Positions 7,365 to 52,121 of a stretch of DNA of 54,422 bases are shown here, piece by piece. The position numbers were made by a program, and so were the translations under genes. Every line of letters starts with the position of its first letter. The stretch's first letter is position 1. The DNA is from a virus: positions 1 to 54,422 of IMG/VR virus record IMGVR_UViG_3300022745_000041. The stretch is one strand, 5' to 3'. The notes beneath the pieces were generated by a model. That model saw only the letters and a program-made list of their open reading frames with translations, did no database searches and was not told where the DNA came from.

Positions 7365-7380
7365 TCCTTGAGTTAAAACG
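7365..7380. repeat. 16-bp direct repeat flanking pentapeptide cassette (copy 2)
   Basis: Identical to 6662-6677. On the minus strand it covers the last Phe codon and stop of the helicase gene plus the ribosome-binding leader of the pentapeptide gene. Confidence 0.7.
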
Positions 7381-20043: not shown

Positions 20044-20053
20044 CCCTGACTCC

Positions 20054-21328
20054 TTACGCAGACAACCACGCAGACCCCGGCACAACTGCCATATTTAATT
20101 CTTTCGCAATGGCTGCGATAGATTCAAACGATGGCAGATGACACTCAATCGCATTATCAACATTATGTGTATCGCGACAAGCCTTCATCCATAACATATC
20201 ATTACGAAGTCGGTCGGCTCGGTGCTGTTCCGTGATCTCTGGCGGACAATAAGCCGCGCCTCGATTCCAAAAGTCATGCCATCCGCTCACGTCGCGAAGA
20301 CACACAACCTCGCGTCCCAACGATTTGAATAACCGGCCAATCCATTCATCACCGCCATAGCCTCGCAAGCCCTGCGGAATCTTGCCGCTTGGCCATGCCG
20401 ATCGACGACAAGCGAAGAACCACGCACCGCACATCTCTACCGGGATCGCAGCGAGGTTGCTTGGGTTCGGTTCAATGCTCCACTGGCCAAAGGCATTACC
20501 CCAAGTTGGTTTCATGCCGGTTGCCATCACCTCGCCGCCATCGCTCAGCAGTTTTGCCGTGGCCAGCCCGTCGAAATCGAGATTGTCGGCAAACCATTGA
20601 ATGAGCCTGAACAACGCACCCGGTTCGATCAAGACGTGAGAGTCAATTACGATAACAATCTCGCCCGCCGCGTGATCGAATACCGCCGCCTTGGGCGGGA
20701 ATGTTCCGCGTTGCGTGCATTCAACAACGCGAACAACGCCCGGATTCTGTCCGGAGATGTGGTCGAGATGTTTACGTTGTTCCGCGTCTGATCCATTATC
20801 GACGATAATGATTTCGGTGTCGGCCATGACCTCCGCGTGAAACATTAACAGCGATCGCACCACCCATCGCACCCGCATTGCATCATCCACTGACGCCATT
20901 CCGATTGTCAATTTTTTCGTCGGCAACTTGTGTGGTTGGCGTAGCGTGCATGTCGAGCACGCTATCGGAGCTTCCGTCCCGTCTGCTGGAGTCACGGGCA
21001 AGATTGTGCATAGTGAACCAACCTGCGAACCATGCTGGCATTGAAACAACGGCATCATCCGCCCGCCGTTAGCTTTCTCCTCTGGTGTCGATGCGCAGGT
21101 CTTGCACTTGATTTCTCCGTTTGGCTTGCGGTGAATACAGCGGCAACCGTCTAGTTGCGCGGATTGCATCGCCCACGAACGCCGGTATTGCTCCAACGTC
21201 GGTTTTCCGGTGTATGGTTTTGTTTCCGTTTCGTCGTGCGGATCAATGCCGTTATAGATACGGAGCACGCCATCGCTTGGCGGATAGAAGCCGAACTCTT
21301 CTCTGAAATGTGCTTTACCGAGTTGCAT
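20054..21328 (-). CDS. GT2 glycosyltransferase with Cys-rich N-terminal domain
   Basis: A 424-residue protein. Residues about 40-130 have spaced Cys pairs (CRCIH, CKTC, CSTC), likely zinc ribbons. A GT-A domain then starts TIGMASVDDAMRVRWVV, with TEIIIVDNGSD and VIVIDSHVLIEPGAL; the DSH triad is the metal-binding form typical of polypeptide GalNAc-transferases. GGDEWIGRLFKSLGREV matches the acceptor-side motif. The likely reaction is transfer of a sugar to Ser/Thr of a protein or to a glycan. AGGGGAAGCAAGG lies before ATG 21328. The next gene upstream encodes a mucin-like Ser/Thr tract. Confidence 0.8.
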   Translation of the reverse strand: MQLGKAHFREEFGFYPPSDGVLRIYNGIDPHDETETKPYTGKPTLEQYRRSWAMQSAQLDGCRCIHRKPNGEIKCKTCASTPEEKANGGRMMPLFQCQHGSQVGSLCTILPVTPADGTEAPIACSTCTLRQPHKLPTKKLTIGMASVDDAMRVRWVVRSLLMFHAEVMADTEIIIVDNGSDAEQRKHLDHISGQNPGVVRVVECTQRGTFPPKAAVFDHAAGEIVIVIDSHVLIEPGALFRLIQWFADNLDFDGLATAKLLSDGGEVMATGMKPTWGNAFGQWSIEPNPSNLAAIPVEMCGAWFFACRRSAWPSGKIPQGLRGYGGDEWIGRLFKSLGREVVCLRDVSGWHDFWNRGAAYCPPEITEQHRADRLRNDMLWMKACRDTHNVDNAIECHLPSFESIAAIAKELNMAVVPGSAWLSA

Positions 21329-21348: not shown

Positions 21349-22008
21349 TTAACTATTGCTGCAAGTTCCGTTGTATGTTTGACCCATAAACGTTCCTGTT
21401 GCGACAACGGTTCCCGTCAGCGTGCTATAAAGTTTGTCGTCAGTATCGCCAAACGCCGATCCATTCGCATAAGTAATGCTGCAAGCAAGCGTACATCCAG
21501 AGCATGTGTCGTTTATCATCGCCCAAAAGCCTGCAAAATAAGTCCAATCACATGCACCGGAGCAACCCCCGGAGGTCGATGATGAGCTGGACGTAGACGA
21601 GGAACTGGACGAAGATGAACTGCTGGACGAAGATGAGCTGGAAGTCGTTGTCGTGGTTGAGGTTGTGGACGACGACGATGATGACGACGAGGAACTGGAC
21701 GAAGATGAACTACTGGACGAAGATGAGCTGGAAGTCGTTGTCGTGGTTGAGGTTGTGGACGACGACGATGATGACGACGAGGAACTGGACGAAGATGAAC
21801 TGCTGGACGAAGATGAGCTGGAAGTCGTTGTCGTGGTTGAGGTTGTGGAACTTGTCGGCCCCGGCTTCTTTTGCAACAACGCTTGACCGCTCGATTCGGC
21901 CCGTGGTGCCGTTGATATCGCGTTGAAGACATCTCGCTTGAGTGCCGCGAAGCCATGCTCCAGGCGTTCCATGCGTTGCTGTTGAGTTAGTCCAGTGATG
22001 TTGTACAT
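21349..22008 (-). CDS. Mucin-like Ser/Thr-rich virion protein (219 aa)
   Basis: The N-terminus (1-50) has a helical MYNITGLTQQQRMERLEHGF start. Residues 52-147 are almost purely Ser and Thr (about 96 residues), arranged as three 30-residue blocks. A Cys-rich domain of 72 residues follows, with six cysteines and two NGS/NGT-type sites, and looks like a secreted beta domain. It starts at TAATG directly after the hub gene, so it is likely a tail-tip spike or fibre. The Ser/Thr tract is an ideal O-glycan acceptor, and two glycosyltransferase genes follow at once. Glycosylation is inferred, not shown. Confidence 0.7.
   Translation of the reverse strand: MYNITGLTQQQRMERLEHGFAALKRDVFNAISTAPRAESSGQALLQKKPGPTSSTTSTTTTTSSSSSSSSSSSSSSSSSSSSSSTTSTTTTTSSSSSSSSSSSSSSSSSSSSSSTTSTTTTTSSSSSSSSSSSSSSSSTSSSSSTSGGCSGACDWTYFAGFWAMINDTCSGCTLACSITYANGSAFGDTDDKLYSTLTGTVVATGTFMGQTYNGTCSNS
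21598..21866. repeat. Three 90-bp tandem repeats
   Basis: Blocks beginning at 21601, 21691 and 21781 are nearly identical (one base difference noted, CTGCTG/CTACTG), encoding the Ser/Thr blocks on the minus strand. Identity at the DNA level, not only in amino acids, points to recent expansion. The other strand gives acidic open frames, which are shadows. Confidence 0.9.
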
Positions 22009-29613: not shown

Positions 29614-32600
29614 TTACCCCACAGAGAAGAACGTCAGCGTGGGGAGTCCGACCGGCGTTTGGCCGTTGACCTTGATTGCATCGGCTTTGATGTTACCTGC
29701 CTCTGTGAGTGTGTCCGGCAATCGACTCGACAGATTCGCCAACATGCCTGTGACGCTATCGCCGTCAACGCTGATTTGATCATTGACCACAAGACTGTTG
29801 CCGATGCTCATTCCGCCATCAATCTTCAGTGAGTTCGCGAGATGGATATCGTAGGAGGTGTCCGAACCAATCTGAATACCGTCACTCGACACACCGTTGA
29901 TCCAAACACCAACGGCACCCTGAATAGACAAGCCTTTTCCAGTTCCTGACCCAACAATCTTAACACCCTCATTGTCTCCGCTTGCAGAAATATCTAGCGC
30001 GGGCGATCCTGTGCCGCCATAGATGCCAAAGCCGGGATTTGTTCCGCTGGAATACGCGACCAGCCCGTAGCTACCGCCAACTACTAATCCGCAGCCGCCT
30101 GCCTGCGACTCCAGGAACGCACCGTCAGACGTCGCAGACGTGGCATAAATACCTCGCCCTGACGTCGAACCACTGGCAATCTTAAGTCCGTCACCATACT
30201 GGCCAGCGGAAATATGAACGCCTTCGCCAGTCCCATTTCCGGTGATTGAAACCGCCGCAGTATCGGCGATTGACTGCGTGATGTTTAGTCCAGCTTCGAG
30301 GTTCACGGCACCGTCAATTTTCAATCCGTGAACGTGAGCAGCCCACCCTTCACCACCAGAGAGGATGTCGAGACCACAGCCAGCGCCGTTCGTCTGCAAC
30401 GTCACTGCCGATCCTGTTGACTGACCGCCCCATATATGCAGGCCGCTTGAATCATGTCCCGCATAAAGGACAACCGCGTCAGAACTGACAGACTGAGCGT
30501 AGATCGCGTTCTGCTGAGCAAAGATGTCGAACCCGTTTTGGCCAGCATACATCAGCACGCAGTGGCCGCTATCGGAGTGCATATCCAATGCAGGTCCAGC
30601 CCCGTTGCCAACCAGCCTTAATGCCGTGGCGTTCGTGGCGCTCGGCGACACAACGACCGACCCCGTAAACGTGATGTCGTTCGGCTGGGCCGCATTCAGG
30701 GTCACATCAGCAACTACCGGTTTACCGCCAGTCAGCGTCACTGCCGATTCATTGCTACCTGCGTCTTGGAATGCAGCGGTTGCTACGACCGGCAACCCAG
30801 TGCTATCGGAGTTCAATACGGGTTGGCTGTTCCACTTAGACACCTCGACTCGCAGATGCCCATTGCCGTCCTCTGCTGCTGTTTCCCCATTGATTTGCGT
30901 GACGTTCGCTTGGACCGTAGTTCCTTGCGGCATCACATAGTCACCACTCACGAACGAGACGACACCAGCAGTGCCGGTATCTACCGCCACGTCATGCCCG
31001 TTGATTCCCATCAACTCTGCTTGCACGCCTCGCCCGTTATTGACGACTCGGCCAGAGAGGTCAGTCAGTGTGGTCTCGTCAGCAATGTTGTTCGCAGGCA
31101 ACTTGTTGTAGATCGCCGTCAGATTTGTTCGGTCGGTAGAACTAAAAGAAACCGATCCATTAGCATTAACCTGTGGCTGAGTCACTGCCACGAAATTGGA
31201 CGCCACGGAATTTGTCGTTGTCGTTCCAGCGAACTTCATGACGAGCGGCTCAAGCGTTGCATTGCTGGCCACGGTATATGTTGCCGTGTAAGTTCCGGTT
31301 GATCCATGAGTCCATCCGCTGAAATGCGCGCTGCGGTCGGTGCCGACTGCATTGGTGATCGTGCTCGTGATTATCCCGCCGTCAGCATCCTGTAGTTGTC
31401 CGTTTTCATTCCAGATGTACAGAGTCAATGGGTAAGCGGTGTCTGTTCCTTCGACTGGATAAACAAGCGACGTCACAACCAAGGCGTTCGGCATCGACTG
31501 CGTGAAGTTCACGATATCGGCATGAGACGAGACATTGCCGCCCACATTCAGATTATCGAGATACCCACCACGAGCCGAAGTTAATCGACCAAGCAAAGTT
31601 GTTGTTCCCGCTGTATCGGAATTCAGCGTGACAGTGGAATTGATTGCGTTCGCCGTTGTCTGCAACGCTGACACAGCAGACGCAGACGCCAGCGTTGATC
31701 CGGGGTCATGGCCAGCCAGAGTTCCGAGATTCGTTGCGAGCGTCCCTGTCCACGTTGCCGTTGAAAGCGCCGTCGCCGCCAGTGCCGCGTTATCCGTGCC
31801 TCGCATGTCTGTGTTGGTCGTCGTTGTATCCACCAGTGTAACGCGGGCCAGCGTTGCCGCTTTCTGTGTGGTCGTGAAGTCCATTGCCGCGTTGAACGCA
31901 AACGACGACGAATTTAGAGCATACGCCCCACCAGTGACCTGAGCCTGAGTGAGCGTCGAGGTTCCTCGGCTGCTGATTGTCGCATCGAGATACGTTCCGG
32001 TCGCCGAGTTGATCGTGTTTGCCGTTGTCTGCAATGTGGACAGTGCCGTTGCCGTTGCCGCTGCCGCCGTCCCGCCTACGTACACACCGACAGTTACGCC
32101 AGCCGCGCAAGTCACGGTCTGCGTTTTGATAGTCTGCAAATCTGCCGCAACATTGCCGGTGACATCGGAAGCCGCCAGCGTCGCCGGAACCTTACCACTC
32201 GAAAGGTTGACCTGCCCTGTGCCAGTGCCGACCGACAACAACACGCTCGCACCAAGATCACGAGCCGTTTGGGCAGTAGCTGCCCCTGATGGACCAGCCT
32301 TCACCGTCGTTGAATCAACCAGGCCAGACGAGTCAATCACCATATCCTTAGTGTCAGTCCAGATCACACCCTTCGCAGCAACGCTGCTCACTGTCGCTGA
32401 AATCTCAAGATCGACGACATCGCCAACCGCCAACGTCGGAAGCGTCACCTGTGCTTTGTATGATCCCGTTGCCACGTTCGTGACCGTCACGGTCGCCGCA
32501 TCAGCAACGCCATTCACATACAGCGTACCTGTTGGCAGTGAGTCTGCATTCGAGGCGGCACCTGTTGAAAAAACCGATGTCGTGAACTTCTTGGTAATGC

Positions 32601-32622
32601 TTTGGCCAGACCTGACTGACAT
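29614..32622 (-). CDS. Large tail-fibre protein (1002 aa)
   Basis: The N-terminal 100 residues form a beta domain (TLYVNGVADAATVTVTNV). A long repetitive middle follows, rich in Thr/Ala, with recurrent TTANTINS and TTLGTLAG-type motifs. The C-terminal third has glycine-rich short repeats (VSSDAVVLYAGHDSSGLH, GNGTGEGVHISAGQYGDGL) of a beta-helix or beta-prism. It ends with VNGQTPVGLPTLTFFSVG. This is the usual build of a trimeric tail fibre. It starts at TAAATG with GGGGG upstream. Host-receptor binding is inferred. Confidence 0.75.
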   Translation of the reverse strand: MSVRSGQSITKKFTTSVFSTGAASNADSLPTGTLYVNGVADAATVTVTNVATGSYKAQVTLPTLAVGDVVDLEISATVSSVAAKGVIWTDTKDMVIDSSGLVDSTTVKAGPSGAATAQTARDLGASVLLSVGTGTGQVNLSSGKVPATLAASDVTGNVAADLQTIKTQTVTCAAGVTVGVYVGGTAAAATATALSTLQTTANTINSATGTYLDATISSRGTSTLTQAQVTGGAYALNSSSFAFNAAMDFTTTQKAATLARVTLVDTTTTNTDMRGTDNAALAATALSTATWTGTLATNLGTLAGHDPGSTLASASAVSALQTTANAINSTVTLNSDTAGTTTLLGRLTSARGGYLDNLNVGGNVSSHADIVNFTQSMPNALVVTSLVYPVEGTDTAYPLTLYIWNENGQLQDADGGIITSTITNAVGTDRSAHFSGWTHGSTGTYTATYTVASNATLEPLVMKFAGTTTTNSVASNFVAVTQPQVNANGSVSFSSTDRTNLTAIYNKLPANNIADETTLTDLSGRVVNNGRGVQAELMGINGHDVAVDTGTAGVVSFVSGDYVMPQGTTVQANVTQINGETAAEDGNGHLRVEVSKWNSQPVLNSDSTGLPVVATAAFQDAGSNESAVTLTGGKPVVADVTLNAAQPNDITFTGSVVVSPSATNATALRLVGNGAGPALDMHSDSGHCVLMYAGQNGFDIFAQQNAIYAQSVSSDAVVLYAGHDSSGLHIWGGQSTGSAVTLQTNGAGCGLDILSGGEGWAAHVHGLKIDGAVNLEAGLNITQSIADTAAVSITGNGTGEGVHISAGQYGDGLKIASGSTSGRGIYATSATSDGAFLESQAGGCGLVVGGSYGLVAYSSGTNPGFGIYGGTGSPALDISASGDNEGVKIVGSGTGKGLSIQGAVGVWINGVSSDGIQIGSDTSYDIHLANSLKIDGGMSIGNSLVVNDQISVDGDSVTGMLANLSSRLPDTLTEAGNIKADAIKVNGQTPVGLPTLTFFSVG

Positions 32623-34694: not shown

Positions 34695-34985
34695 CTATTC
34701 GCCATCCTCTTCCGACAGCCATCCCCATAACATCCATAGCGTCGAAAGTACCTGATAGATCAGATACAGCGAACCAGGATCGAAGAAGCCGCAACGTTGC
34801 GAAACGGCTTCCTTGCATCGTTCCAGATGCTCTTTTGCATCGCCGCCGCACGGAAACGGGTTCTCGTCAAGCCAATCACAAGCCGCGTCGTGTGACTCGT
34901 TGGCCACCTTGTAGCGTGCATCATGCAGGCCATACGGGGCGCAACATTTCAAGCGTGATTCTTCGCGGGTAGGTCCGTGGCTCAT
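34695..34985 (-). CDS. Cys-rich protein with a C-terminal membrane segment (96 aa)
   Basis: The N-terminal two thirds have six cysteines (LKCCAPYG, AACDWLD, FPCGG, ERCKEAV and others). The C-terminus (LYLIYQVLSTLWMLWGWLS) is a probable membrane helix followed by an acidic tail. It overlaps the thioredoxin lipoprotein gene by 4 bp, so disulfide handling may link the two. No family is recognised. Confidence 0.55.
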   Translation of the reverse strand: MSHGPTREESRLKCCAPYGLHDARYKVANESHDAACDWLDENPFPCGGDAKEHLERCKEAVSQRCGFFDPGSLYLIYQVLSTLWMLWGWLSEEDGE

Positions 34986-35860
34986 TGCGTTACCTCGAAT
35001 TGAATGTCCGGCAGCCCATCAATCAACACATTTCCGCGAGTCTCGCCAATCACAGCTTTCCGAACTCGCCCATTGAACGAGACATGCGGAAGCGTCGATT
35101 CATCAAATTCAATCACAACATCTTGGCCAGCCTGACTCACACTTGCGATCAGCCCGTGAGTCGGTGCGTTGACGCTCATTCCGTAAGGAAGCCGTAGACC
35201 TTTATCTGACAAGAGTTGTTTGACTTGCTGAACAGTTGCACGAATTGGGAGCTTGGCTCCGCTTGATAAGCCGTAGGCTTGTTGTGATACCGGCGCGGCA
35301 TATGTCGGAAACGATTTCCGCCACATGCGGACGAAACCATCAATGCCCGGCCAAGGCTCTTCTTTGCTTGGCGCAAACGCCACCCACTTGGCTTCAACTG
35401 GCCAGTGAAGTGTCGGCAAAGACGTCACCCATTCCGGCCTCTTGTCGTCGTCGTCTTTGATCTCAACCGTAAACGGCAATTCGTTCTTGCAGGCGTCAAT
35501 TTCTTTCAAGATCGCTTTGCATGGCGCGCACCATTTCGCAGACCAGAAAATAACAGCGGGCCTCTTCTCGACCACTGCTGCTACTTCGTTCGCACATCCG
35601 ATACATTTGCACGACTGGCCACACTGGCAAGCAATTCGCTTGAGCTTGCCGCTTGACCGATCGTTGACATATCGAGAACCTCCACACTGGCAAGCAGTGG
35701 GTTTTGGCTTCACGGGTTCGATGTTCGGTTGCGTCTCTCCGTGAACCATTAACGCCAGTTCGCTTGCCGCGAAGCATTTGGCAGGCTCGATATCGTTTGC
35801 GGTCGCCGGTTTCATGCAACCCGACGTCAGGAACATCAACAGCACTGCTAAGACTCGCAT
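34982..35860 (-). CDS. Thioredoxin-like lipoprotein (292 aa)
   Basis: It has a signal peptide with lipobox LTSGC (Cys15). A Cys-rich region follows (CQCGGSRY, CQCGQSCKCIGC, 57-89), probably zinc- or metal-binding. A thioredoxin domain with WCAPCK (110-115) comes next, then LPTLHWPV, where the cis-Pro belongs. A C-terminal domain of about 100 residues is unassigned. It would sit on the cell surface or periplasmic membrane and reduce or shuffle disulfides. This is unusual for a phage. It is flanked by a papain-like protease gene and a Cys-rich membrane protein gene. Confidence 0.82.
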   Translation of the reverse strand: MRVLAVLLMFLTSGCMKPATANDIEPAKCFAASELALMVHGETQPNIEPVKPKPTACQCGGSRYVNDRSSGKLKRIACQCGQSCKCIGCANEVAAVVEKRPAVIFWSAKWCAPCKAILKEIDACKNELPFTVEIKDDDDKRPEWVTSLPTLHWPVEAKWVAFAPSKEEPWPGIDGFVRMWRKSFPTYAAPVSQQAYGLSSGAKLPIRATVQQVKQLLSDKGLRLPYGMSVNAPTHGLIASVSQAGQDVVIEFDESTLPHVSFNGRVRKAVIGETRGNVLIDGLPDIQFEVTQ

Positions 35861-35864
35861 TCCA

Positions 35865-36680
35865 TCACCCTCCCGTCAGCATTCCGCAACGATATTCACG
35901 CACGCGCCATTCGACGATATCCGACAACAACACGACTTCCGAGCCGTGAAGATCAATCCAATGTTGCACAACGTCAGGCGTCGCTGTCCAAAAGCCTCGC
36001 TCATGAACATCTTCACCCCACGAATTGATGCCCTCGAAAGTACCGTCAGCCGCGTAGCCCGTGATCGTCATGCAGTGCATTCCAAGCATTGAGCCGCTTG
36101 AGACAGTTCGCATCGTCCAGTGCGATGAGTCACGCATCGCGGTTGTGATCGGCACGCCGATCATTGCAACGCCCTTGCGTGTCCCGATGTAGTTCCTGAC
36201 GTCGTCAGGATTGCGAGGAATTGAATGTTGCAGGAGCTTATGTTGGCCAGCGTAGGCTTCGTATTCATCAGGAAACGAGCGGGGATACATATTTGAGTAT
36301 GGATAGAGTGATTCAAGCACTCCGCCGCCCAATTGCTCGAGCGCTTTGCGTGCTCCCGATATCGCCGCGCCGTGATCTCCGCCGAAATAACCTGACTGAA
36401 GTTGAGCCGCTAAATACAGCCACAACGGAGACGGATCGACGTCTTGCCCGCCGTCAAGATGGTTGAGGATACGCACCGCCGCCCACGCGCCGTGACCAAC
36501 GCAACTATTCACGTGCGATCCTGTCGGATCGTCACCTTGATTGCGAGGCGTTAGCCAATCGCGTTGGCTGACACTGTCGGGGATAGAGACAGCACCGCAG
36601 AGAGAATCCAATGCGGCAAGATCGCTGGCTTGGCTATGCAGGAATTCAAGGTCTTCAAGATCGTGGCGATAACCAAACAT
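35865..36680 (-). CDS. Papain-family (C1A-like) cysteine protease
   Basis: A 271-residue protein with all catalytic positions: RNQGD (oxyanion Gln48), NSCVGHGAW (Cys60), GMHCMTITGY (His202) and GINSWGED (Asn219). Such proteases are rare in phages. No signal peptide is seen, so release would depend on a holin or on the particle. It is placed amid membrane and lipoprotein genes with no muralytic gene in sight, which suggests a lysin-like or maturation role. Start at 36680, with a weak upstream site. Confidence 0.82.
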   Translation of the reverse strand: MFGYRHDLEDLEFLHSQASDLAALDSLCGAVSIPDSVSQRDWLTPRNQGDDPTGSHVNSCVGHGAWAAVRILNHLDGGQDVDPSPLWLYLAAQLQSGYFGGDHGAAISGARKALEQLGGGVLESLYPYSNMYPRSFPDEYEAYAGQHKLLQHSIPRNPDDVRNYIGTRKGVAMIGVPITTAMRDSSHWTMRTVSSGSMLGMHCMTITGYAADGTFEGINSWGEDVHERGFWTATPDVVQHWIDLHGSEVVLLSDIVEWRVREYRCGMLTGG

Positions 36681-36685
36681 CTGCG

Positions 36686-37066
36686 CTACTCACTAACGAT
36701 ATCGGCGGTTTCAATCGAGCAATCAATCAAGTCTGGACTATCGAAATCAACCACGAACGCCATCACTTCTTCAACCTCGTGCGGCCCGTCAACAAATCGT
36801 GTGACCGACACTCGGCAGCTCAGTAGTGAATCAAGCCCATCCTCTTCGAGCATCCCTCCGAACTGGCCAAAGAGGCAAGCGCGGGCAACGTCTTTCGCGA
36901 TCGCTTCGTGAATGTCGATATCGTGCGGATCGCACTGATAGCCTTGACCGGCATATAGCCCGCCGATTTGCGGTTGTTGTGCTCTTGCTTCATAGATGGC
37001 CACAATGCCGCCGATCAGCCCATCGGGAATAGAGGTAAGCGAAAACAAACAGCGCTGAGCAGCCAA
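36686..37066 (-). CDS. Hypothetical protein (126 aa)
   Basis: TTG start directly after the preceding TGA. The sequence has DIDIHEAIAKDVARACLFGQ and an acidic C-terminal strand set (EVMAFVVDFDSPDL). No family is recognised. It is tightly packed between the small 60-residue gene and the papain-like protease gene, so probably part of the same functional set. Confidence 0.55.
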   Translation of the reverse strand: MAAQRCLFSLTSIPDGLIGGIVAIYEARAQQPQIGGLYAGQGYQCDPHDIDIHEAIAKDVARACLFGQFGGMLEEDGLDSLLSCRVSVTRFVDGPHEVEEVMAFVVDFDSPDLIDCSIETADIVSE

Positions 37067-37249
37067 TCAGCGATCCCACATCGGCAACCCTTCGCCAAGA
37101 TACTCAAGCGTTGGTTTCAGTCGCTCGTAAGTATCAGAATTTGGCGGAACGTCCGTCATGTCCGACAAAACTCGTTCGTGTAACTGAATGCGAAAATTCA
37201 TGTCGTCGTTCGCGAGATTCAATTCAGCGTCAGTAATTCCGTGCAACAT
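37067..37249 (-). CDS. Small acidic protein (60 aa)
   Basis: Starts MLHGITDAELNLANDD with AAGGGGCGATATG upstream. Mostly helical and acidic. No function is recognised. It is coupled to the following gene. Confidence 0.55.
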   Translation of the reverse strand: MLHGITDAELNLANDDMNFRIQLHERVLSDMTDVPPNSDTYERLKPTLEYLGEGLPMWDR

Positions 37250-37264: not shown

Positions 37265-37708
37265 TTAAAGTTCATCAGCCACACCTTGCAACAACGCCAT
37301 TACCTTCGCTCGGAGCTCCGCAGTAAGCGGTTGATCAGACGCTCCAATCGCAGCAATCCAGCGATCGTCCAGATTTTGAGAGAACTCAGCGGTCGCCAGC
37401 GTGTTTGGTCCGGCCATTCGATAGCGATTGAGTCGTCCGACATACTCGGCGGCGTCAACAGTTGATCGCAGTAGAGGCGAGGAAATTGTTCCATCGTAGG
37501 CCACCGCTTTCGCTGCTGTGCTGTAAATCGCCTTCAGTTGCGGGCGAGCTTCTTTTGCAACCAAACTGGCCAGTGTTGATGCCGATTTATCCTGGATTGT
37601 GTGGCTTTGCTTAATGCAGCCGTTGAGCACAATCGGAAGCAACGCCACACTGACCAGTATTGGTCGCAAAAAGAAACGTCGTACCCATTCGGGAACGCAG
37701 TATCGCAT
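37265..37708 (-). CDS. Lipoprotein (147 aa), possible outer-membrane spanin-like
   Basis: The start at 37708 overlaps the stop of the membrane-protein gene (TAATG). The N-terminus has a basic region, a hydrophobic core (FLRPILVSVALLPIVL) and lipobox LNGC (Cys31). The mature part is helical, rich in Ala and Lys. A lipoprotein directly after small membrane proteins fits an outer-membrane spanin (Rz1-like) or a superinfection lipoprotein. Similarity to known spanins was not verified. Confidence 0.6.
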   Translation of the reverse strand: MRYCVPEWVRRFFLRPILVSVALLPIVLNGCIKQSHTIQDKSASTLASLVAKEARPQLKAIYSTAAKAVAYDGTISSPLLRSTVDAAEYVGRLNRYRMAGPNTLATAEFSQNLDDRWIAAIGASDQPLTAELRAKVMALLQGVADEL

Positions 37709-38028
37709 TACTGCCCCTCGTGTTTCGGCAACGTTCTTGCCGCATTCCATAAGACGCCAATAGCATTCTTGACATCATCGCCTTCAAGAATTCCGTCAAG
37801 GTGATACAGAGCGTCGATCGTTTTGTTATGTAGATCAGACATCACCGGAGCAACGGACGGAACCGGCACATAGCTTCCGCCGTGAATCAGCCCAATCGCG
37901 GAAACGATCAACGGCAACACCGCTGATTCCTGCACTTCGATCCCGCACATCTTGAGCAATAGCGTGACGATTGCAGCCGCCATTGCGGCCCAACCACTAC
38001 CCTGGGTTGCATACTTGAGCCACTTCAT
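37708..38028 (-). CDS. Small membrane protein, holin candidate (106 aa)
   Basis: Two hydrophobic stretches (GWAAMAAAIVTLLLKMCG and AVLPLIVSAIGLIHGGSY) flank a short loop, with a charged C-terminus. ATG 38028 overlaps the previous stop (ATGA) and has GGAGG upstream. Two-helix membrane proteins in a lysis region are typical holins, but no family is recognised. Confidence 0.6.
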   Translation of the reverse strand: MKWLKYATQGSGWAAMAAAIVTLLLKMCGIEVQESAVLPLIVSAIGLIHGGSYVPVPSVAPVMSDLHNKTIDALYHLDGILEGDDVKNAIGVLWNAARTLPKHEGQ

Positions 38029-38591: not shown

Positions 38592-38876
38592 TCACTTGCC
38601 TGCAATTCCATTCGCACGTTGTTCGTTAGCCGCACGTTTTTCAGAGCAGCATGAATTAAGTGTTTCTTGGAAACCCTTAATCATCGCTGCTTGTTCCGAA
38701 TGCCGCTCTTTCCACATACCGTCAATCGTTGCAATATGTGTATTGCCGATTTGGTAGACACCCATAAGACCGCAAAGCAATAAGAGCGCGACTGGTCCTT
38801 GTTTGGCCACTTGTTCTATCAAGTAGCCTGATGCCGAAAAGGCTTGACCTGTGCTCTGTGGTGTCTCGTTAGTCAT
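38592..38876 (-). CDS. Single-pass membrane protein (94 aa), lysis candidate
   Basis: The start at MTNETPQSTGQAF is the most plausible. A membrane helix (GPVALLLLCGLMGVYQIG) is followed by a helical periplasmic domain with a CC pair near the C-terminus (NSCCSEKR). The single N-terminal helix plus periplasmic coil is the build of inner-membrane spanins, and a lipoprotein gene lies 1 kb downstream. No specific family is recognised. Confidence 0.55.
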   Translation of the reverse strand: MTNETPQSTGQAFSASGYLIEQVAKQGPVALLLLCGLMGVYQIGNTHIATIDGMWKERHSEQAAMIKGFQETLNSCCSEKRAANEQRANGIAGK

Positions 38877-38899: not shown

Positions 38900-39811
38900 T
38901 TATATCAGACTCCACGTTTGACCGACAGCCACCGTGGAAGAATTTGGCTTGAGGCAACTCATTGTGATCGGTTGCCAGTTGTAATCGTCGGGCGTCACGG
39001 AATCGTTGGCGTCGATAATTGCGAGGCGATTGAACGACAGCACAACTTGCGTTGCGTTTCCGCTCGCGCCTGTTCCCGCGTGCAATCCAGAGAGAGTCAG
39101 GCTCGCGGTCTTATGTGAGATTGATGATAGCCGTTGCAGAACCGCCATAGCACTGGATGACTTGAGCGGCTTAATCGTTAGTGATTGCTGACAGCCAGTA
39201 GATCGCAATGACGACGGCTCATAACCTGCGTTGTACTTCAGCGAAAGGTTATGTCGGATCGTATAGCTAAATGACTCGATCGGCAGTGACGAGCCGTCAA
39301 ACGTCAGCGCAACATCCGCGAAGAGAAACTCAAGACATTGGCCGCGATTGTCCGGCAACGCGGTACTGAGCACGCTGGCCAGTTCTTTTTTACCAACAAG
39401 CGTCAGCGATAGCGTCACGCCGTTCGGATCGCCGGAAAGCGTTGCTTCATCCACCCGAAGCCCTGCCCACCGTGAGGCACTAACGTTGTCGATCCAATGC
39501 AGTGATTTACTAGACCCGTCGGCGGTTTCGGGAGAACTGAACGCCCACTCAATCAGATATTGCGCGAACGACTGACTAGCCGATGGTGCCCAAAATCCAT
39601 AGAGCGGACACGAGATTGTCCCACCGATCTTCCGCCTGACCTTCTCCGCGTATTTCGGCTGCCGGATGCCCGCGTAACCTTTCGCTTCGCGAGTCTCGAC
39701 ATCGGCCTTCAGTGCAAAATTCGTCAGCGGAATATATCGGTCAACGTCGCCGCCGACCGTCCCCCAGGACGATTCGGATTGAAAGACTGCGAATGATTTT
39801 GCGGATGTCAT
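38900..39811 (-). CDS. Tail-tube protein, paralogue 1 (303 aa)
   Basis: Starts MTSAKSFAVFQSESSWG. It shares many blocks with the next gene upstream: the xxDDRxxxLExLFxDxxLxxxGS type stretch (ALPDNRGQCLEFLFADVAL versus ALPDDRNGLLEMLFSDTVL), LSLKY/IKPLF and LSGLHAGT/IKGLHSGT. Both have the size and beta-strand pattern of phage tail-tube proteins of the tubular long-tail type. A terminator hairpin lies just before its start, so it is likely expressed at a different level from its paralogue. Confidence 0.72.
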   Translation of the reverse strand: MTSAKSFAVFQSESSWGTVGGDVDRYIPLTNFALKADVETREAKGYAGIRQPKYAEKVRRKIGGTISCPLYGFWAPSASQSFAQYLIEWAFSSPETADGSSKSLHWIDNVSASRWAGLRVDEATLSGDPNGVTLSLTLVGKKELASVLSTALPDNRGQCLEFLFADVALTFDGSSLPIESFSYTIRHNLSLKYNAGYEPSSLRSTGCQQSLTIKPLKSSSAMAVLQRLSSISHKTASLTLSGLHAGTGASGNATQVVLSFNRLAIIDANDSVTPDDYNWQPITMSCLKPNSSTVAVGQTWSLI

Positions 39812-39825
39812 TTGCTTACCAATGC

Positions 39826-39861
39826 AAAAGCCCGCCACATCCTTCGATTTGGCGGGCTTTT
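39826..39861 (-). terminator. Rho-independent terminator between tail-tube genes
   Basis: A perfect 12-bp inverted repeat AAAAGCCCGCCA / TGGCGGGCTTTT with a 12-base loop. Both ends have A/T runs, so it can act in either direction. On the minus strand it would stop some transcription after the upstream tail-tube gene (39877-40839), lowering downstream expression. Confidence 0.85.
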
Positions 39862-39876: not shown

Positions 39877-40839
39877 CTACACCGTATCCCAAACAGGAAC
39901 GCACGTATTATCGCTCGTGTCAGGCTTCAGGAGGTGCATCTTGATCGCCTGGAAGCCGAAATCGTCCAGACCGATATCGTCGCTTGCTTCGTCCAACACT
40001 GACCGGGCAAAAGTGAACTGGCCAGTGGTGTAGGTGTCGGCGGCAGTCCCGCTGTGCAAGCCTTTGATAGTCAGGATGCTTTCAAGTTCAGTATTGTCCT
40101 GCAACCGCAAGTATGCGTCGTAGGTAGCGGCAGTCTTGAGCGGCTTGAACGACAGCGTCTGCTTGTTGTACTGAGCCGAAACTTGATTCGGTCGGTTGCC
40201 GTTGAGAAACAGCGGCTTGATGCCGTAGTCCACTTCCCAACTGAATTCCGACATATCGACAGCCGAACCACCGATACTCAATACCGTATCGGAGAACAGC
40301 ATTTCTAGCAGACCATTTCGATCGTCAGGCAACGCTGACGCTGAGCCTTGCAAGACGATCTGCGTTTTGCCAATACAGTCGAGCGTCAACTCCAGGAAAC
40401 CATCGCTTGCAGAGCCTTTCAGGGTCGCTTTATTGACTCGCAACCCGCTGTCTTCGTGGCCTGTGACAGTCGTGCCGCTGCCGTCCTTGTGGATGTCAAA
40501 CGCGCGGAACGACGGGCGAGGGTCGAGCGTTTCTGGCGTATCGGTCACGAGGTCAAGAAAGTATTGAGCGATCGACACCGCAGGACTCGACAAGTAGGCA
40601 CCGTAGAGCGGCATCACGATCGAACCGCTCACAAGGCTATTCGGCGATTGGCTATGGTGAGACTGGCCACGACCAGCAATCGGTCGATGCTGTGCGGAAT
40701 TGCGCTTCAACGCAACGCCGTAACTCTTGGTCGGAGCGTGAACCAAAACAGGAGTCGAAGGGCGAGTGCCCCAAGCGGCACCAGTGCCGGTTTCTTTCTC
40801 AAAATACTGATAACGCTTAGCGCCTAAGACGTGAGACAT
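39877..40839 (-). CDS. Tail-tube protein, paralogue 2 (320 aa)
   Basis: Paralogue of 38900-39811 (shared blocks listed there). It is transcribed first and followed by the terminator, fitting the abundant main tube protein. The N-terminus is longer (SHVLGAKRYQYFEKETG) and has a disordered loop near SPNSLVSGSIV. The other copy may cap or decorate the tube, or form its distal rings. Confidence 0.75.
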   Translation of the reverse strand: MSHVLGAKRYQYFEKETGTGAAWGTRPSTPVLVHAPTKSYGVALKRNSAQHRPIAGRGQSHHSQSPNSLVSGSIVMPLYGAYLSSPAVSIAQYFLDLVTDTPETLDPRPSFRAFDIHKDGSGTTVTGHEDSGLRVNKATLKGSASDGFLELTLDCIGKTQIVLQGSASALPDDRNGLLEMLFSDTVLSIGGSAVDMSEFSWEVDYGIKPLFLNGNRPNQVSAQYNKQTLSFKPLKTAATYDAYLRLQDNTELESILTIKGLHSGTAADTYTTGQFTFARSVLDEASDDIGLDDFGFQAIKMHLLKPDTSDNTCVPVWDTV

Positions 40840-41910: not shown

Positions 41911-43017
41911 TTACGCACTGAAGACGGTTGGCATGTAAATACTATTTGGATTGGCGAACCCAAGCCCGAAGTTGTCACCGAGGTACAGCGAGCATTGAGC
42001 CAGTGGAGTCACCTTCACTTGCGCGAATCCGAACATGCCGACCACTGGCTTCATGGTCGCCAACGCGGATTCGAGATTGTCGAACACGCCGAGCGTGGTC
42101 GGAACGTCTTGAGTCCCTTCAACGCATCGTTTCCAAGGTCCGTTTGGCGGGCAAATGATCGCTTGGCGAAGCGGGATCAGCGGGTACTGAGTGCCACCGG
42201 CGGAAGTCCAGTAACCTTCGACTCCAACAATGTTCCAACCGAAGTAGTTGGTAATCTTGCCGGAGTTGATCACTTGCTCGTTCGTGACCTTGTTCAGCGT
42301 AGCCCACGCTTGGAACTTGGTGTTCAAGAGCAACTTCGGCAATCGCAGGCGATTGATATAGACCGTGTTAGGAGCTTCGCTCCCGGCCTTCACAGAAGCG
42401 TCACGGAAACCTTCCAATTCTTGGAAGATGTCGGTCGTGGTCGTATCCCAAGCGCCCGTCGTGAGCGATCCACAGTTGCCGCGATGCGAGTCCGCAACTT
42501 GGTAGTCAGCCACAACTGCTGCGCCGGTCGTGGTCAGCGCGCCAGTCGTCGCGTGAACTGTCGGCATAATGGGATCGAAATTGCTATCGAGACAACTAAC
42601 GCCGAACGTCATCGCTTGACCGACCAACACTTCGCGAAGCAACTTTTGCCGACGTCCGGCTTCCTCAATGGTCGCTGCAACCCATTCCTGACCAATTTGT
42701 CGAATGCCGGGATCGTTGCTGCGAAGGAATCGCAGAGTGTCGTTAGGCATCGTCAGTTCGTTGAAAGAATTGAACAGACTGAACGACTTTTTAGACGCAC
42801 CGGGACCGTTTTGCCGCTTCGGCATCGATCCGCGAGTATTGGCAGGGTTCGGTACATTGCTGCGAGTCAGCGAGAAGATCGTGACATCGTCGCTCACGGT
42901 CGATTTGACATCAGACCAGAACGTATCGAGCATCGGAGTGCCGACCATCGTTGGCGCGTTGCGATAGCTGGCAGAAATGTCACGGAAGTCCAGCATTGTT
43001 TGGAGAGAATCAGCCAC
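41911..43017 (-). CDS. Major capsid protein, gpE-like (368 aa)
   Basis: Reads DFRDISASYRNAPTMVGTPM at the start and TIFSLTRSNVPNPANTRG later, with LYLGDNFGLGFANPNSIYM near the end. The size and gene context (protease, decoration, capsid, connector) fit the HK97-fold gpE family. The start is GTG 43017 with AAAGGTG upstream; an upstream TTG in frame is not used. It has its own terminators on both sides (43070-43096 and 41866-41889). Confidence 0.82.
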   Translation of the reverse strand: MADSLQTMLDFRDISASYRNAPTMVGTPMLDTFWSDVKSTVSDDVTIFSLTRSNVPNPANTRGSMPKRQNGPGASKKSFSLFNSFNELTMPNDTLRFLRSNDPGIRQIGQEWVAATIEEAGRRQKLLREVLVGQAMTFGVSCLDSNFDPIMPTVHATTGALTTTGAAVVADYQVADSHRGNCGSLTTGAWDTTTTDIFQELEGFRDASVKAGSEAPNTVYINRLRLPKLLLNTKFQAWATLNKVTNEQVINSGKITNYFGWNIVGVEGYWTSAGGTQYPLIPLRQAIICPPNGPWKRCVEGTQDVPTTLGVFDNLESALATMKPVVGMFGFAQVKVTPLAQCSLYLGDNFGLGFANPNSIYMPTVFSA

Positions 43018-43036
43018 GGAAGTACACCTTTGCAAC

Positions 43037-46391: not shown

Positions 46392-46678
46392 GCTGCATCC
46401 TCCTTCGGTTCCGCCGCTGCATGTCGCGATAACTTGACGAGCGTTGCCATTGTAGCCGCGTTGCGCAAGTGGTGTTCATACCACATTCGGTCGCCAGCGT
46501 TTTTCGATGCACGCTTCCGCCACGTCTCTGCGGTTGCGAGTAGCTCGTTGAGTATTGCATTAACCATGTTTTCCGAACATCTATCGACTAAATGTCGAAT
46601 CAAACGGCTCTCAACGTAATGCTCTGCCGATCGGTCTTCGATTGCTGCCACGAGCTTGATTGCGTCAATTGCTTTCAT
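46388..46678 (-). CDS. Small helical protein (96 aa)
   Basis: Starts MKAIDAIKLVAAIEDRSAE and is helical throughout, with a basic middle (ATAETWRKRASKNAGDRMW). It overlaps both neighbours by 4 bp. No family is recognised; a head-associated accessory is possible. Confidence 0.6.
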   Translation of the reverse strand: MKAIDAIKLVAAIEDRSAEHYVESRLIRHLVDRCSENMVNAILNELLATAETWRKRASKNAGDRMWYEHHLRNAATMATLVKLSRHAAAEPKEDAA

Positions 46679-47472
46679 CGTTTTCCCCGTCTTGGCTTCT
46701 GCTCTGCGGTCAGTTCTTTAATCTTCTTAACCGTGTTCGGGAAGGATATCGAGAACTCTTGAGCCGACATAGCTCCTCCACCATGTAAGGACGCAAAGCC
46801 TTCTGCGAACGCCTCGCTGTAACCGGCGTCTGAGGCGTGGAATCGACCGCTCACGGCATTGCGTGCCGGTTGAATGAAGTAACTCATTTTCCCGGCTTCT
46901 CCGTTTAGCGAATAGCCATCGGCCTCAAATTTACTTCCGCTGCCGTGCATGATCGCCAACAAATCCGCTCGATACGCGGTTCTGAAATCGTCTCGCTGCG
47001 ATATGCGATGGTCTAGGAAATTATCATCAACCGCATGACCGATTTCGTGTCGCATCACCCCGGCTGGGTCGCGTGTTTTTGTGCGTGCTGTCGATGGCCC
47101 CTCGTGCTCGGCAACAAAGGCTTGTTTAGTGTGCGGAATATACGCCGCCCCGACTTCGTGTAACGATCCGCTCCAATAACCACGAGGCTTATCGTTCATG
47201 TCGTAATGAGCTGAGAGCACATCGGACGCATCTTTTGCCGCAATCGTCTTCACGCCTTTCGACTTCAAGACGGCAGCTATATGCGGCGGAATTGACTTCA
47301 CGGCCTGGCTAGTTGCCGCAACGAATTGAGGGTTAGGGCTACCAGCACTCTCAACTCCGTGAATCGAACTGGCCGCCCGCTTCACACCCGCCTTGCTCAC
47401 CCCTCGCCGCGCATACTGATTACTCCCAATACCACCGCCCTTGCCTGTGATGCGTTGCCCCGGCTTTGTCAC
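46675..47472 (-). CDS. Lethal-factor-like (ATLF-type) metalloprotease
   Basis: A 265-residue protein with HEIGHAVDD (142-150) and SEAFAEGFA (219-227); the distance and the second Glu fit the zinc site of ATLF-type peptidases. Small phage proteins of this kind sit between portal and minor head genes. It might be an injected or capsid-associated protease. The GTG start overlaps the portal stop (GTGA). A basic glycine-rich N-terminus (KGGGIGSNQYARRG) is probably flexible. Confidence 0.75.
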   Translation of the reverse strand: MTKPGQRITGKGGGIGSNQYARRGVSKAGVKRAASSIHGVESAGSPNPQFVAATSQAVKSIPPHIAAVLKSKGVKTIAAKDASDVLSAHYDMNDKPRGYWSGSLHEVGAAYIPHTKQAFVAEHEGPSTARTKTRDPAGVMRHEIGHAVDDNFLDHRISQRDDFRTAYRADLLAIMHGSGSKFEADGYSLNGEAGKMSYFIQPARNAVSGRFHASDAGYSEAFAEGFASLHGGGAMSAQEFSISFPNTVKKIKELTAEQKPRRGKR

Positions 47473-48917
47473 GACATTACGTCGAGCACCGACCGCAGCG
47501 CGTCCGACTTTTTTTTTACAGCTAGCTCGTAAGGCTCATTCGCTTGGAACAACGGATCAGCGTTCGGACCATACTGCTGTTGTGTCTGCTCGCGCATGGC
47601 CTGCTTATCCGCCTTTACCTGCGCAAACGCAGCATCAAGCCGCTCAACATAATCACGGGCCAGTGGAACGCCAGCATTGGCCAGTATGGTCGCAACGTCG
47701 ATCGCTCCTGACTCTAGCAGCGGCCCCCATTGCGGCATTGCCATGATAGCTTTAACCGTCTCGACCATCAGGCCATCAGTGATGCGTGACGTTGGCGTTA
47801 CCGTGATTTTTGGAGGCTTGCCAGGGTAGTTCGCAGGCCCGTAGACACGATTGACGATCGCTTCAAATTGGCTCGTCAGTTGCGAGCCAAGCGAATCGCA
47901 CTTACTGAGAACAACAAACATACGCACCGTCTGTGATGCGTATGAACCTGTTTCAGTGTCCATAGTAACCGATTCGTGAACGCCGAACGCCCGCGACATC
48001 TTTGCGTCAATCAGATTGTCGATAATCTCCAACGGCTTCGCATCCAGCGATCTCGCTTCGTGCGTGATGTCGATCTGATACTTGCCCTCCATGCCCGGTG
48101 TGCTGTGTGCATCGTTGGGCAGGATCGTCAGACCGCCTGCGGTCTTGTTGGCATGGTATTGCGCTGCGATCAGCTTGTGGTTGTTGACCACTCGGCCAGT
48201 TTCATCAACCGCAGTTGCCGGAGCGTGAATTGTCGGACCATCAACGGCCCAACGCGCAACGAACACCTGGATGAGTTGATCTGTCTCTTTGCGTCGCTTG
48301 CGGACCTCAGCCGGAGCGCCTAAGAATAGCGAACGACCATGCGGTTCAAGCGGTGTGGCACTAATCGCAAACCAGCACGATTGCTCTGGCGGTATCACGA
48401 AATCTGAGCCGTCAATCGTGACTCGAATGCCACCGAACTGGCCAGAACTGTCGAGCACCAATTCCGTCGCTCGTGCTCCGTTGATGTGCTTCGGTAGCTG
48501 TTTGAACTGCTTAATGACCGTGATCGGAACGCCGCTAACCTCATCGTTTTCAATGACTAATTCAAACGGCAATCCTCCCCACGTGAACACGCCGTGTTCC
48601 GGGTCGCAGAACTTTTCGAGAGTCTCAAGCCAAAGACGATTGAGGTCGTCTTCGATCGCCTCGGCGGTTGCGTCACCTTCCGGCGCGTCAACGTTTATCG
48701 TGACATCACCACGTTTGACGCTCGATAGCAACACGTCCTGCGTAATGACCACCATCGGGTCTTTGCGCATGTCGCAGACAAGCTCCGCGAGGTCGCGAAT
48801 CGGCTCTGGCTGTACAACTCCGGCGATAACCGGATCAACGGCTTTTGCCGCATCGGCGCTAGCGGTTTGCTTGCTGCCAAACAGTCTACGGGTTGCGTCT
48901 CGGAGTTCTGCGAGCAT
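47469..48917 (-). CDS. Portal protein (DUF935/Mu gp29-like)
   Basis: A 482-residue protein with motifs shared by phage portal proteins: MRKDPMVVITQDVLLSSV, FTWGGLPFELVIEND and GRSLFLGAPAEVRKRRKETD, and SRAFGVHESVTMDTETGSY late. It forms the 12-fold ring at the head vertex. It follows the terminase cluster and is followed by the metalloprotease and minor head genes. A hairpin with the ribosome-binding site precedes ATG 48917. Confidence 0.85.
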   Translation of the reverse strand: MLAELRDATRRLFGSKQTASADAAKAVDPVIAGVVQPEPIRDLAELVCDMRKDPMVVITQDVLLSSVKRGDVTINVDAPEGDATAEAIEDDLNRLWLETLEKFCDPEHGVFTWGGLPFELVIENDEVSGVPITVIKQFKQLPKHINGARATELVLDSSGQFGGIRVTIDGSDFVIPPEQSCWFAISATPLEPHGRSLFLGAPAEVRKRRKETDQLIQVFVARWAVDGPTIHAPATAVDETGRVVNNHKLIAAQYHANKTAGGLTILPNDAHSTPGMEGKYQIDITHEARSLDAKPLEIIDNLIDAKMSRAFGVHESVTMDTETGSYASQTVRMFVVLSKCDSLGSQLTSQFEAIVNRVYGPANYPGKPPKITVTPTSRITDGLMVETVKAIMAMPQWGPLLESGAIDVATILANAGVPLARDYVERLDAAFAQVKADKQAMREQTQQQYGPNADPLFQANEPYELAVKKKSDALRSVLDVMS

Positions 48918-49248: not shown

Positions 49249-49290
49249 ATAACCTCGCTGCGCGGTATTGCGTGAGGCATACGTTAGCGG

Positions 49291-49527
49291 TTAATGATGT
49301 TGAGTGCTAGGCGTTAGTTGCTCTTTCAGCAGCGCATTCTCTGCCAACAACGCCTCCCACTGAGCTTTATCAACCAATGCGTAGCCGTCGCGGCCTTCGT
49401 ATGTCGTGCGGATATCGGTGAGTCGCAGGACGAAACGAGCGAGGCGTCGACCTGCGTCAAATACTTTCCGCAGGTTGTTTGGACCGTTCTGGAGAATGTA
49501 TTCTGCGTCTTCGAGAAATGAATTCAT
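49291..49527 (-). CDS. Small hypothetical protein (78 aa)
   Basis: ATG 49527 overlaps the stop of the upstream gene (ATGA) and has AGGGGGCGATTC in front. It is helical, with LEDAEYILQNGPNNLRKVF. No function is recognised. Confidence 0.6.
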   Translation of the reverse strand: MNSFLEDAEYILQNGPNNLRKVFDAGRRLARFVLRLTDIRTTYEGRDGYALVDKAQWEALLAENALLKEQLTPSTQHH

Positions 49528-49781
49528 GAATCGCCCCCTATTTCGTTGTCTTCTAGCCACTCGAAAGACTCGTTGTATTCGGCTTGAGCGGCAATGAGGG
49601 TGTCCACAAAGTGAACCGGTTTTAATCCGTGTTCAAAACAGTCGGTAATAAACTCAAGATGTTGCTCCCAAGCTCCGTCTTTCATGCCTTCAAAAACGCA
49701 TGTGAGTTCAATCTCTTCTTGCGACATAATGTAATCGCATGCCCATTCGTAGGCTTGGTCTTTTAGCTCTTCTCTGGTCAT
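49524..49781 (-). CDS. Small acidic protein (85 aa)
   Basis: Starts MTREELKDQAYEWACDYI with GGAGCATGAA upstream. Acidic and helical; no family is recognised. Coupled to the terminase gene on one side and the 78-residue gene on the other. Confidence 0.6.
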   Translation of the reverse strand: MTREELKDQAYEWACDYIMSQEEIELTCVFEGMKDGAWEQHLEFITDCFEHGLKPVHFVDTLIAAQAEYNESFEWLEDNEIGGDS

Positions 49782-49782
49782 T

Positions 49783-51141
49783 TCATGCTCCTGTGTGCCA
49801 CGTGACCGGCCCTGACTGCATCACCAGCTTATTGTAAGCACCGCTTGCAGCGTCGGCTTGATCATCATGAACTCCGCTCCAACACTGCGTGAGTTCGTCT
49901 ATGAAAGCACGATTCCACGGTGCCCGCAATAGGCGGACTTGCTTTTGCTCAGTCCTGGCCTGTAGCGGACGTGCGCGAATGCTTTTCTCTTTGCTCATCG
50001 TCTCTACACGACAGCCATACTTGGCCCACCGCATGACGTTAATTTCTCCGACCGTCTTTCCAGCCCCTCCCCCTTCACGCTCAATCCATTGTTCGCATTT
50101 CAGGCCATGCTGATCGAAGTCCCGTTTCATCGTGGCTTCAATCTGAGCGTCGCGAGTTGATGCCGTCCACTGCCCGCGAACCACGTCCAGGACGTAAACA
50201 AACCCGTCTCCGCCGTCAGCCATCAACACTCCGACCGTGTAGTCACCATCTTTGCTGCTTGCCGTGTCCCAATACCGCACAACCTTCGCAATCTTGGCGG
50301 GTTCGATATCAACAATCTGGTTAATGTCGTCATGCTTGAAGAACAGCCCGCCTTCCGGAATCGGGTTCCCCATATACATGGCGGACCAAAAGTAACTACC
50401 GAGCAACGCCTTTGTTCTCAGTAGCTTATCGAATGAATGAAGCTCCGGACACAACGCCTCGCCGCGTTCGTTAATTGCTGGCAAGAGCAACTTACGAACA
50501 GGAATCCCTTGATCCTTGCAGACCTCATGCAACTGGCCAGTGAGGTCATTCACATGCCAGCGTGTCTGCATGATGATGACCGCTGAATCTTGTTGCAGTC
50601 GCGTATATGCCGACGATAGGAACTGATTCCAGACCGTCTCGCGAACCACTGCTGAACTGGCTTGCTCGTGATTGCTATATGGATCATCGAAGATGAATAG
50701 GTTTGCCCCCTTGCCTGTCGTTGACGAACTTCCACCTGTGCTCATCTCGCCGCGATGCCCCTCCACACCCCACCAGTCTGACCGCTTCAGTGATTTACTA
50801 ACACGTAGCCCTGTCGTTTCTGACATCGACGCGAAGACGTTGCGAGCTTTCGCGCCCCAGCTTGCCGCGAAGTCGCTTGCGTAACTGTTGAGGATGACCC
50901 TCCTGTCTGGCCAAAGACTCATGAGCCAAGCGGGCGTATATTTCGACATCAATTCGCTTTTGCCGTGTTGTGGCGGAACAGATACCGTCAGAATTCGGCA
51001 ATCGTCAACGCCCATGACGGTGTCAATGATTGCGTTATTGATCGCTTGCAAGTGCGGATACGGTTTCCACTGGCCACCGCTTGCGGCTTGAGCGTAACCA
51101 GCGGGCGTTGCTATTCGGCGGACGGATTCGAGGTCAAGCAT
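49783..51141 (-). CDS. Terminase large subunit (452 aa)
   Basis: Walker A PPQHGKSE (56-63), Walker B LFIFDDPY (148-155) and the RNase H-like nuclease with RYWDTASSKDGDY (289-301) and GVHDDQADA near the end. This is the typical ATPase/nuclease that cuts and pumps the DNA. It follows the putative small subunit with the 63-residue gene between. With no cos site recognised, headful packaging fits the circular assembly, but this is inferred. Confidence 0.92.
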   Translation of the reverse strand: MLDLESVRRIATPAGYAQAASGGQWKPYPHLQAINNAIIDTVMGVDDCRILTVSVPPQHGKSELMSKYTPAWLMSLWPDRRVILNSYASDFAASWGAKARNVFASMSETTGLRVSKSLKRSDWWGVEGHRGEMSTGGSSSTTGKGANLFIFDDPYSNHEQASSAVVRETVWNQFLSSAYTRLQQDSAVIIMQTRWHVNDLTGQLHEVCKDQGIPVRKLLLPAINERGEALCPELHSFDKLLRTKALLGSYFWSAMYMGNPIPEGGLFFKHDDINQIVDIEPAKIAKVVRYWDTASSKDGDYTVGVLMADGGDGFVYVLDVVRGQWTASTRDAQIEATMKRDFDQHGLKCEQWIEREGGGAGKTVGEINVMRWAKYGCRVETMSKEKSIRARPLQARTEQKQVRLLRAPWNRAFIDELTQCWSGVHDDQADAASGAYNKLVMQSGPVTWHTGA

Positions 51142-51144
51142 GAA

Positions 51145-51336
51145 TTATTCGATTGGGTCGTGATTTAGCGGCACGTGATCCAATGCGTTGAGCGCTTCTT
51201 GCACGTCGGCAAGTTGCCGCTCGTACTTGTCCGTTGGGATCGCTTGTGCAAAATAGTCGCTATTTTCTTTGCACTTACGGATCAGTGATTTCAAATATGA
51301 TTCACGCTCTTCGAGAATTTCAATCGCATGATTCAT
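51145..51336 (-). CDS. Small coiled-coil protein (63 aa)
   Basis: Starts MNHAIEILEERESYLKSL and is helical with Glu/Lys/Arg heptads; Glu/Asn/Asp at the end. Overlaps the previous gene (ATGA). It may be a terminase accessory; unproven. Confidence 0.55.
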   Translation of the reverse strand: MNHAIEILEERESYLKSLIRKCKENSDYFAQAIPTDKYERQLADVQEALNALDHVPLNHDPIE

Positions 51337-51740
51337 CCCCCGATCCTTTCAGTTAGTGCCGCCCGCCCCTCCGGTGTCTTCAGTAACTCAATCGCTACGT
51401 CTCTCGCTGTTGGGCCTGCGTTATTATTGACCGCTAATCCGACATTTACCTGATTTTGCGGTAACGGAGCGTCCAAGTTAGTCACCGCGATGTTAATCTT
51501 GTCGCTGTCTTGCAGTATTTTCATGGCAGCAATGACATCGCCCGGCTTTCCTCCCGATTGCACCATGCGAAACGCTTCTGCGAGTACCGCTCCTCGCATC
51601 TCTGCCGTGACTGGCCAACGTCTACGGATCGCACGCCTTGCAAGCCGAGCTGTTGCGTGATCTGTCAAAACATCATTGCCCTGACCCCGGAATCCGTGCG
51701 ACGGTTGGTGTACTAATTCTGTAGTATTTGCATCTTCCAT
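51333..51740 (-). CDS. Putative terminase small subunit (135 aa)
   Basis: Its position before the large subunit and its size fit a small terminase. The sequence has HATARLARRAIRRRWPVTA then GGKPGDVIAAMKILQDSDK, basic helices fit for DNA binding, followed by a disordered and then helical C-terminus (AIELLKTPEGRAALTERI) that could contact the large subunit. No diagnostic motif. Confidence 0.55.
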   Translation of the reverse strand: MEDANTTELVHQPSHGFRGQGNDVLTDHATARLARRAIRRRWPVTAEMRGAVLAEAFRMVQSGGKPGDVIAAMKILQDSDKINIAVTNLDAPLPQNQVNVGLAVNNNAGPTARDVAIELLKTPEGRAALTERIGG

Positions 51741-51775
51741 GATGCCACCATCGTATCATGATTGCATCTTCGTGA

Positions 51776-52072: not shown

Positions 52073-52121
52073 GTCATCGCCCTGCCGGATGTTTTACTGC
52101 GTCTGCGCCGTCTAAAAAGCG

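Follow-up and report, generated by a model that had tools for sequence, protein, structure and literature searches.

A papain-like C1 protease in a candidate holin-released lysis cassette of an IMG/VR phage

In the classical holin-endolysin-spanin cassette, small membrane proteins, a lipoprotein and a signal-less enzyme are encoded in one late cluster. The C39 domain of mycobacteriophage LysA is one muralytic enzyme with a papain fold. Phages and archaeal viruses use papain-like folds to cut wall peptides, for example in CHAP, NlpC/P60 and the C71 enzymes PeiW and PeiP (PMC10318531). CHAP, NlpC/P60, LysA C39 and PeiW/PeiP share the broad fold of the protease studied here, whereas their families are different. 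Xylellain (PDB 3ois) is a bacterial member of the same papain family C1. In Alicyclobacillus phage MMB025 (PV686781), a C1 papain-like domain is found in a protein annotated as an endolysin, which, if the annotation is correct, would be a precedent for C1 enzymes in lysis. Our literature searches, which covered papain-like lysis cassettes and phages of planctomycetes, found no usable description.

We analysed a viral DNA stretch of 54,422 nucleotides (IMG/VR record IMGVR_UViG_3300022745_000041, positions 1 to 54,422; hereafter the window) that encodes a C1 protease. Its locus resembles the classical cassette in having small membrane proteins, a lipoprotein and a signal-less enzyme in one late cluster, but the enzyme is a C1 protease, an exported thioredoxin is present and no muralytic enzyme was recognised. 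The protease is similar to xylellain in fold, size and the Cys, His and Asn residues. It differs from xylellain in sequence (~20% identity), in a 6-residue insertion between Gln48 and Cys60, and in being phage-borne within a cassette that contains an exported thioredoxin. The C1 domain of MMB025 is fused to glycoside-hydrolase-like and peptidoglycan-binding domains, whereas the window C1 stands alone. We put the probability that this C1 protease is the lytic enzyme, or an essential part, of a holin-released protease cassette at about 0.5.

The minus strand at 35865-36680 carries a complete ORF of 271 amino acids, and the plus strand of this interval has no coding frame and many stops. Searched alone, the window protein gave a subthreshold match to PF00112 (E 0.13, 12.8 bits against a cut-off of 20.7) and matched xylellain with E 0.007. 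Single-protein searches of IMG/VR, GTDB genomes and INPHARED returned no relative, and the alignment-led search alone succeeded. A tblastn search with the window protein yielded 43 viral loci that were confirmed as relatives (best E 1e-10). Profiles made without the window protein recognised it as their sole match among the window's proteins (E 1.9e-16 and 2.4e-20), and none of 200 shuffled copies matched the same profiles. Given the viral tblastn loci, the independent-profile matches and the shuffled controls, the papain match is above chance. C1 relatives matched PF00112 with E 1.2e-10, and profile A5, built from a nine-member family, matched xylellain (8e-37), cathepsin K (9e-21) and other cathepsins (near 1e-20).

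A structure predicted from an alignment of 25 sequences, 24 of them viral relatives, had a pLDDT of 72.6 and a pTM of 0.76; prediction without the alignment gave a low pLDDT of 34.9. The model superposed on xylellain 3ois with a Z score of 22.5 over 227 residues, and on many papains and cathepsins with Z scores of 16-18. Pfam detected neither CHAP or NlpC/P60 nor any other known muralytic domain in the protein, and the families listed up to E 1 were C1 only. By family and predicted fold, the gene product is a genuine papain-like C1 protease, with proteolysis itself being a predicted activity. A preliminary description had placed a papain gene at these positions; its coordinates agree with the intact minus-strand ORF, and the papain relationship is borne out by the profiles and the model.

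Cys60, His202 and Asn219 occur in papain order, with an NSWG motif at Asn219, and are invariant in the 25- and 9-sequence alignments. Gln48 aligns as the oxyanion residue, 12 residues ahead of Cys60 as against 6 in relatives. Because the 6-residue insertion is required, Gln48 is tentatively assigned as the fourth catalytic position. The preliminary description had counted all four catalytic positions; three of them are invariant, and the fourth is right only if the insertion is accepted. No signal peptide was predicted for the window C1, whose N-terminus lacks a hydrophobic stretch.

Transcription around the protease runs from right to left, and the genes, all on the minus strand, follow in the order 38592-38876, 37708-38028, 37265-37708, two small ORFs, C1, a thioredoxin lipoprotein and fibre genes. 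The first encodes a 94-aa protein in which sequence inspection identified one hydrophobic segment and a charged tail, a possible lysis accessory. The second encodes a holin-like protein of 106 aa with two transmembrane segments predicted from hydropathy, and the third a predicted lipoprotein (lipobox VLNGC), with no function assigned, placed like the lipoprotein of a related contig, G019. Between this lipoprotein and the protease lie a 60-aa ORF (37067-37249) and a gene for a 126-aa protein (36686-37066) with no Pfam or PHROG match. Positioned 4 nt downstream of the protease, 34982-35860 encodes a predicted exported lipoprotein (lipobox LTSGC) with a thioredoxin domain; its CxxC site is WCAPC and its match to Pfam Thioredoxin falls just under the cut-off (E 0.00018, 21.9 bits against 23.5). 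Further downstream, 29614-32622 encodes a fibre-like protein with a 398-residue stretch 77% identical to G019. The fibre gene is a mosaic whose pieces are 77-88% identical to contigs otherwise little related to the window. Placing the protease in a lysis region, as was originally done, agrees with the topology of these proteins and with the relatives described below, although of the window's own small membrane proteins that at 37708-38028 has no PHROG holin match, that at 38592-38876 has no PHROG match at all, and neither matches a known holin family.

The virion genes of the window comprise a Mu-like portal with Mu F type genes and two tail-tube paralogues, the latter adjoining each other (38900-39838 and 39877-40839, minus strand) and belonging to one Pfam family. 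The portal gene occupies 47469-48917 and the presumed major capsid gene, assigned from position and inspection, 41911-43035. C1 is encoded between tail tube and fibre genes, and fibre genes are found near C1 in several contigs, as might be expected of a virion-associated or maturation protease that processes, for example, the long fibre or the tape measure, or is ejected into the host. However, the usual slot for head maturation, from the portal (47469) to the major capsid (41911), is elsewhere. C1 accompanies exported and membrane genes rather than head genes, and in the related contig G024 DNA metabolism genes occupy one side of it. We consider a virion-associated role very unlikely. Capsid maturation is disfavoured, and with it the earlier proposal of a virion-maturation enzyme, by the position of C1 outside the portal-to-capsid interval and by the exported and membrane genes that accompany it.

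Contigs sharing a piece of the window fibre were searched for C1, and a further scan yielded 45 more loci. G019 and the window have a common order of holin-like protein, lipoprotein, C1, thioredoxin lipoprotein and fibre. The thioredoxin lipoproteins of the two are 26.8% identical, and the sequence similarity between their holin-like proteins and between their lipoproteins is not significant. In G022, C1 is flanked by an exported protein and an exported thioredoxin, in that order. G018 combines a PHROG holin match (E 2.1e-14), an exported protein and C1 in one cassette.

Phylogenetic analysis of 77 C1 proteins with FastTree placed the window enzyme in a phage-borne clade (28 tips, support 0.96), where G024 and G019 are its neighbours (0.71). 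This clade holds nearly all module-borne enzymes and is separate from xylellain-like viral proteases. An exported ORF adjoins C1 in 22 of 26 clade members as compared with 9 of 44 other C1 loci (Fisher p 2e-7), and a small membrane ORF lies within 2.2 kb of C1 in 23/26 and 25/44, respectively (p 0.007); these p-values are guides only, as some of the contig sampling started from module members. In most relatives the exported protein is an anchored or exported partner. A profile of the C-terminal domain of this partner identified 36 ORFs among 247 loci, several contigs being near-duplicates, and all 36 were directly upstream of a C1 gene, often overlapping it by 4 nt. This common partner is absent from the window and G019. 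The C1 of G018 falls in the xylellain branch, yet its partner is the same as that of clade members, which suggests that the partner is able to work with either C1 lineage. A profile of the window's thioredoxin lipoprotein matched only at five distinct loci (the window, G019, G022, L216 and L221), immediately downstream of C1 in each, five being the number of loci behind the window's thioredoxin link. For the partner domain itself, hhalign gave no support for a thioredoxin fold (probability 1.6), at which weak PDB hits (E 0.055 and 0.25) no more than hint, and we do not propose it.

Collectively, these data support a module of two or three parts, set among small membrane proteins: a signal-less C1 protease, a partner that is either anchored or exported and, as a third part present in some phages, an exported thioredoxin. 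Such a module might serve envelope remodelling or host takeover, with partner, thioredoxin and protease altering surface or periplasmic proteins, for instance in superinfection exclusion or in blunting host defence. The link of C1 is strongest to exported proteins and weaker to small membrane proteins, and xylellain-like C1 genes in other phages sit in non-lysis surroundings, both of which would suit this role. However, a C1 protease without a signal peptide would not meet its exported partners absent a membrane pore, and the cassette is a neighbour of the fibre genes in the late region and, in G018, includes a confident holin. We regard envelope remodelling as unlikely.

A Pfam scan of the 70 predicted proteins of the window found no muralytic families, and searches of its six frames with PF01510, PF13539 and PF00959 gave no match. 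The initial observation that no lysozyme, amidase or transglycosylase is encoded thus holds at the sensitivity of Pfam, which overlooks divergent lysins, small ORFs and subthreshold domains; at that sensitivity, no muralytic gene was found among the unassigned window proteins either. For 187 proteins (110-420 aa) from six near-complete carriers, there was no muralytic Pfam family among the matches listed, which in one of the scans were the best 25 of 30 families. Amidase_2 and Phage_lysozyme were absent from 35 C1-bearing contigs. Classical lysins, represented by three families at curated cut-offs, were detected in 0/10 C1 carriers and in 6/35 other contigs, the contigs being possibly incomplete. 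These counts fit the idea that C1 and classical lysins exclude each other but are too thin as proof. Because most C1-negative contigs likewise lack all three tested families, lysin absence in the carriers does not prove that C1 is the lytic enzyme. Outside the clade, two C1 carriers contain other wall-enzyme-like genes, recognised by eye (M15-like in L238, glucosaminidase-like in L225), so that the chief lytic role there may fall to an enzyme other than C1.

The same searches bear on whether C1 is an ordinary accessory protease (moron) that sits near lysis genes while one of the unassigned proteins is the true lysin. Many window proteins are without a family, the sensitivity of Pfam is limited, and G001, the closest terminase relative of the window, has no C1. 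However, neither the strict partner linkage nor a well-supported clade extending over divergent phages is expected of a passing moron, and no lysin was recognised in the six near-complete carriers. An accessory protease appears distinctly unlikely to us. The original reading of C1 as a lysin is strengthened by a recurrent cassette of membrane proteins, exported partner, C1 and sometimes thioredoxin, found in many contigs in which no muralytic enzyme was recognised, one of them with a confident holin match.

The window itself gives no host assignment. The sole host marker found was TIGR02996, detected in G018 only among 34 contigs, and the host is perhaps a Gemmata-type member of the Planctomycetota. 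Planctomycetota have peptidoglycan that is sensitive to lysozyme (PMC4432640). The earlier suggestion of a host with a protein-rich envelope is a weak premise, because the only host hint points to bacteria with peptidoglycan. For the same reason, C1 is no less likely to cut peptidoglycan peptides than a protein wall. Should the hosts prove to be Planctomycetota, the system would also bear on what holds their envelope together.

We infer lysis by C1 in the window from its family, predicted fold and Cys/His/Asn residues, from its linkage and from the absence of a recognised muralytic family. In the proposed mechanism, the signal-less protease would accumulate in the cytoplasm until the small holin-like membrane protein opens the inner membrane. 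The protease would then enter the periplasm and cleave peptide bonds in either peptidoglycan peptides or envelope proteins. The exported thioredoxin lipoprotein may protect the catalytic cysteine from oxidation in the periplasm, an oxidising compartment, or may open disulfides of the substrate. In most relatives, the gene for the anchored or exported partner lies just upstream of C1 and overlaps it, and its product probably holds the protease in position or regulates it. We know of no member of this C1 clade with established lytic or proteolytic activity.

A more doubtful, though possible, extension is that of a widespread phage system, in which C1 would be the sole lytic enzyme, helped by a partner that is anchored and a thioredoxin that is exported, and proteolysis together with disulfide reduction would open the envelope in place of a classical muralytic enzyme. 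A recognisable lysin is often missing in phages of poorly cultured environmental bacteria. If the lysis reading is true, C1, exported partner and thioredoxin would constitute an exit route for some such phages, provide a rule by which lysis genes could be searched for and named in contigs of uncultured phages, and yield candidate envelope-cutting enzymes of a new class.

Several other genes were observed in the window, all on the minus strand. A helicase gene (7373-9970) is split by an intein, with matches to Pfam Intein_splicing and Hint. In the tail region, 18517-21328 contains glycosyltransferase and methyltransferase-like genes. The protein encoded at 21349-22008 has very long Ser/Thr tracts. 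A HEIGH metallopeptidase-like protein with a weak ATLF match (E 0.008) is encoded at 46675-47472, between the portal and Mu F genes. Among the related contigs, L180:12076-13977 (G018) and 49257-52214 of G001 carry phage-borne CxxCH-type haem motifs and may encode cytochromes.
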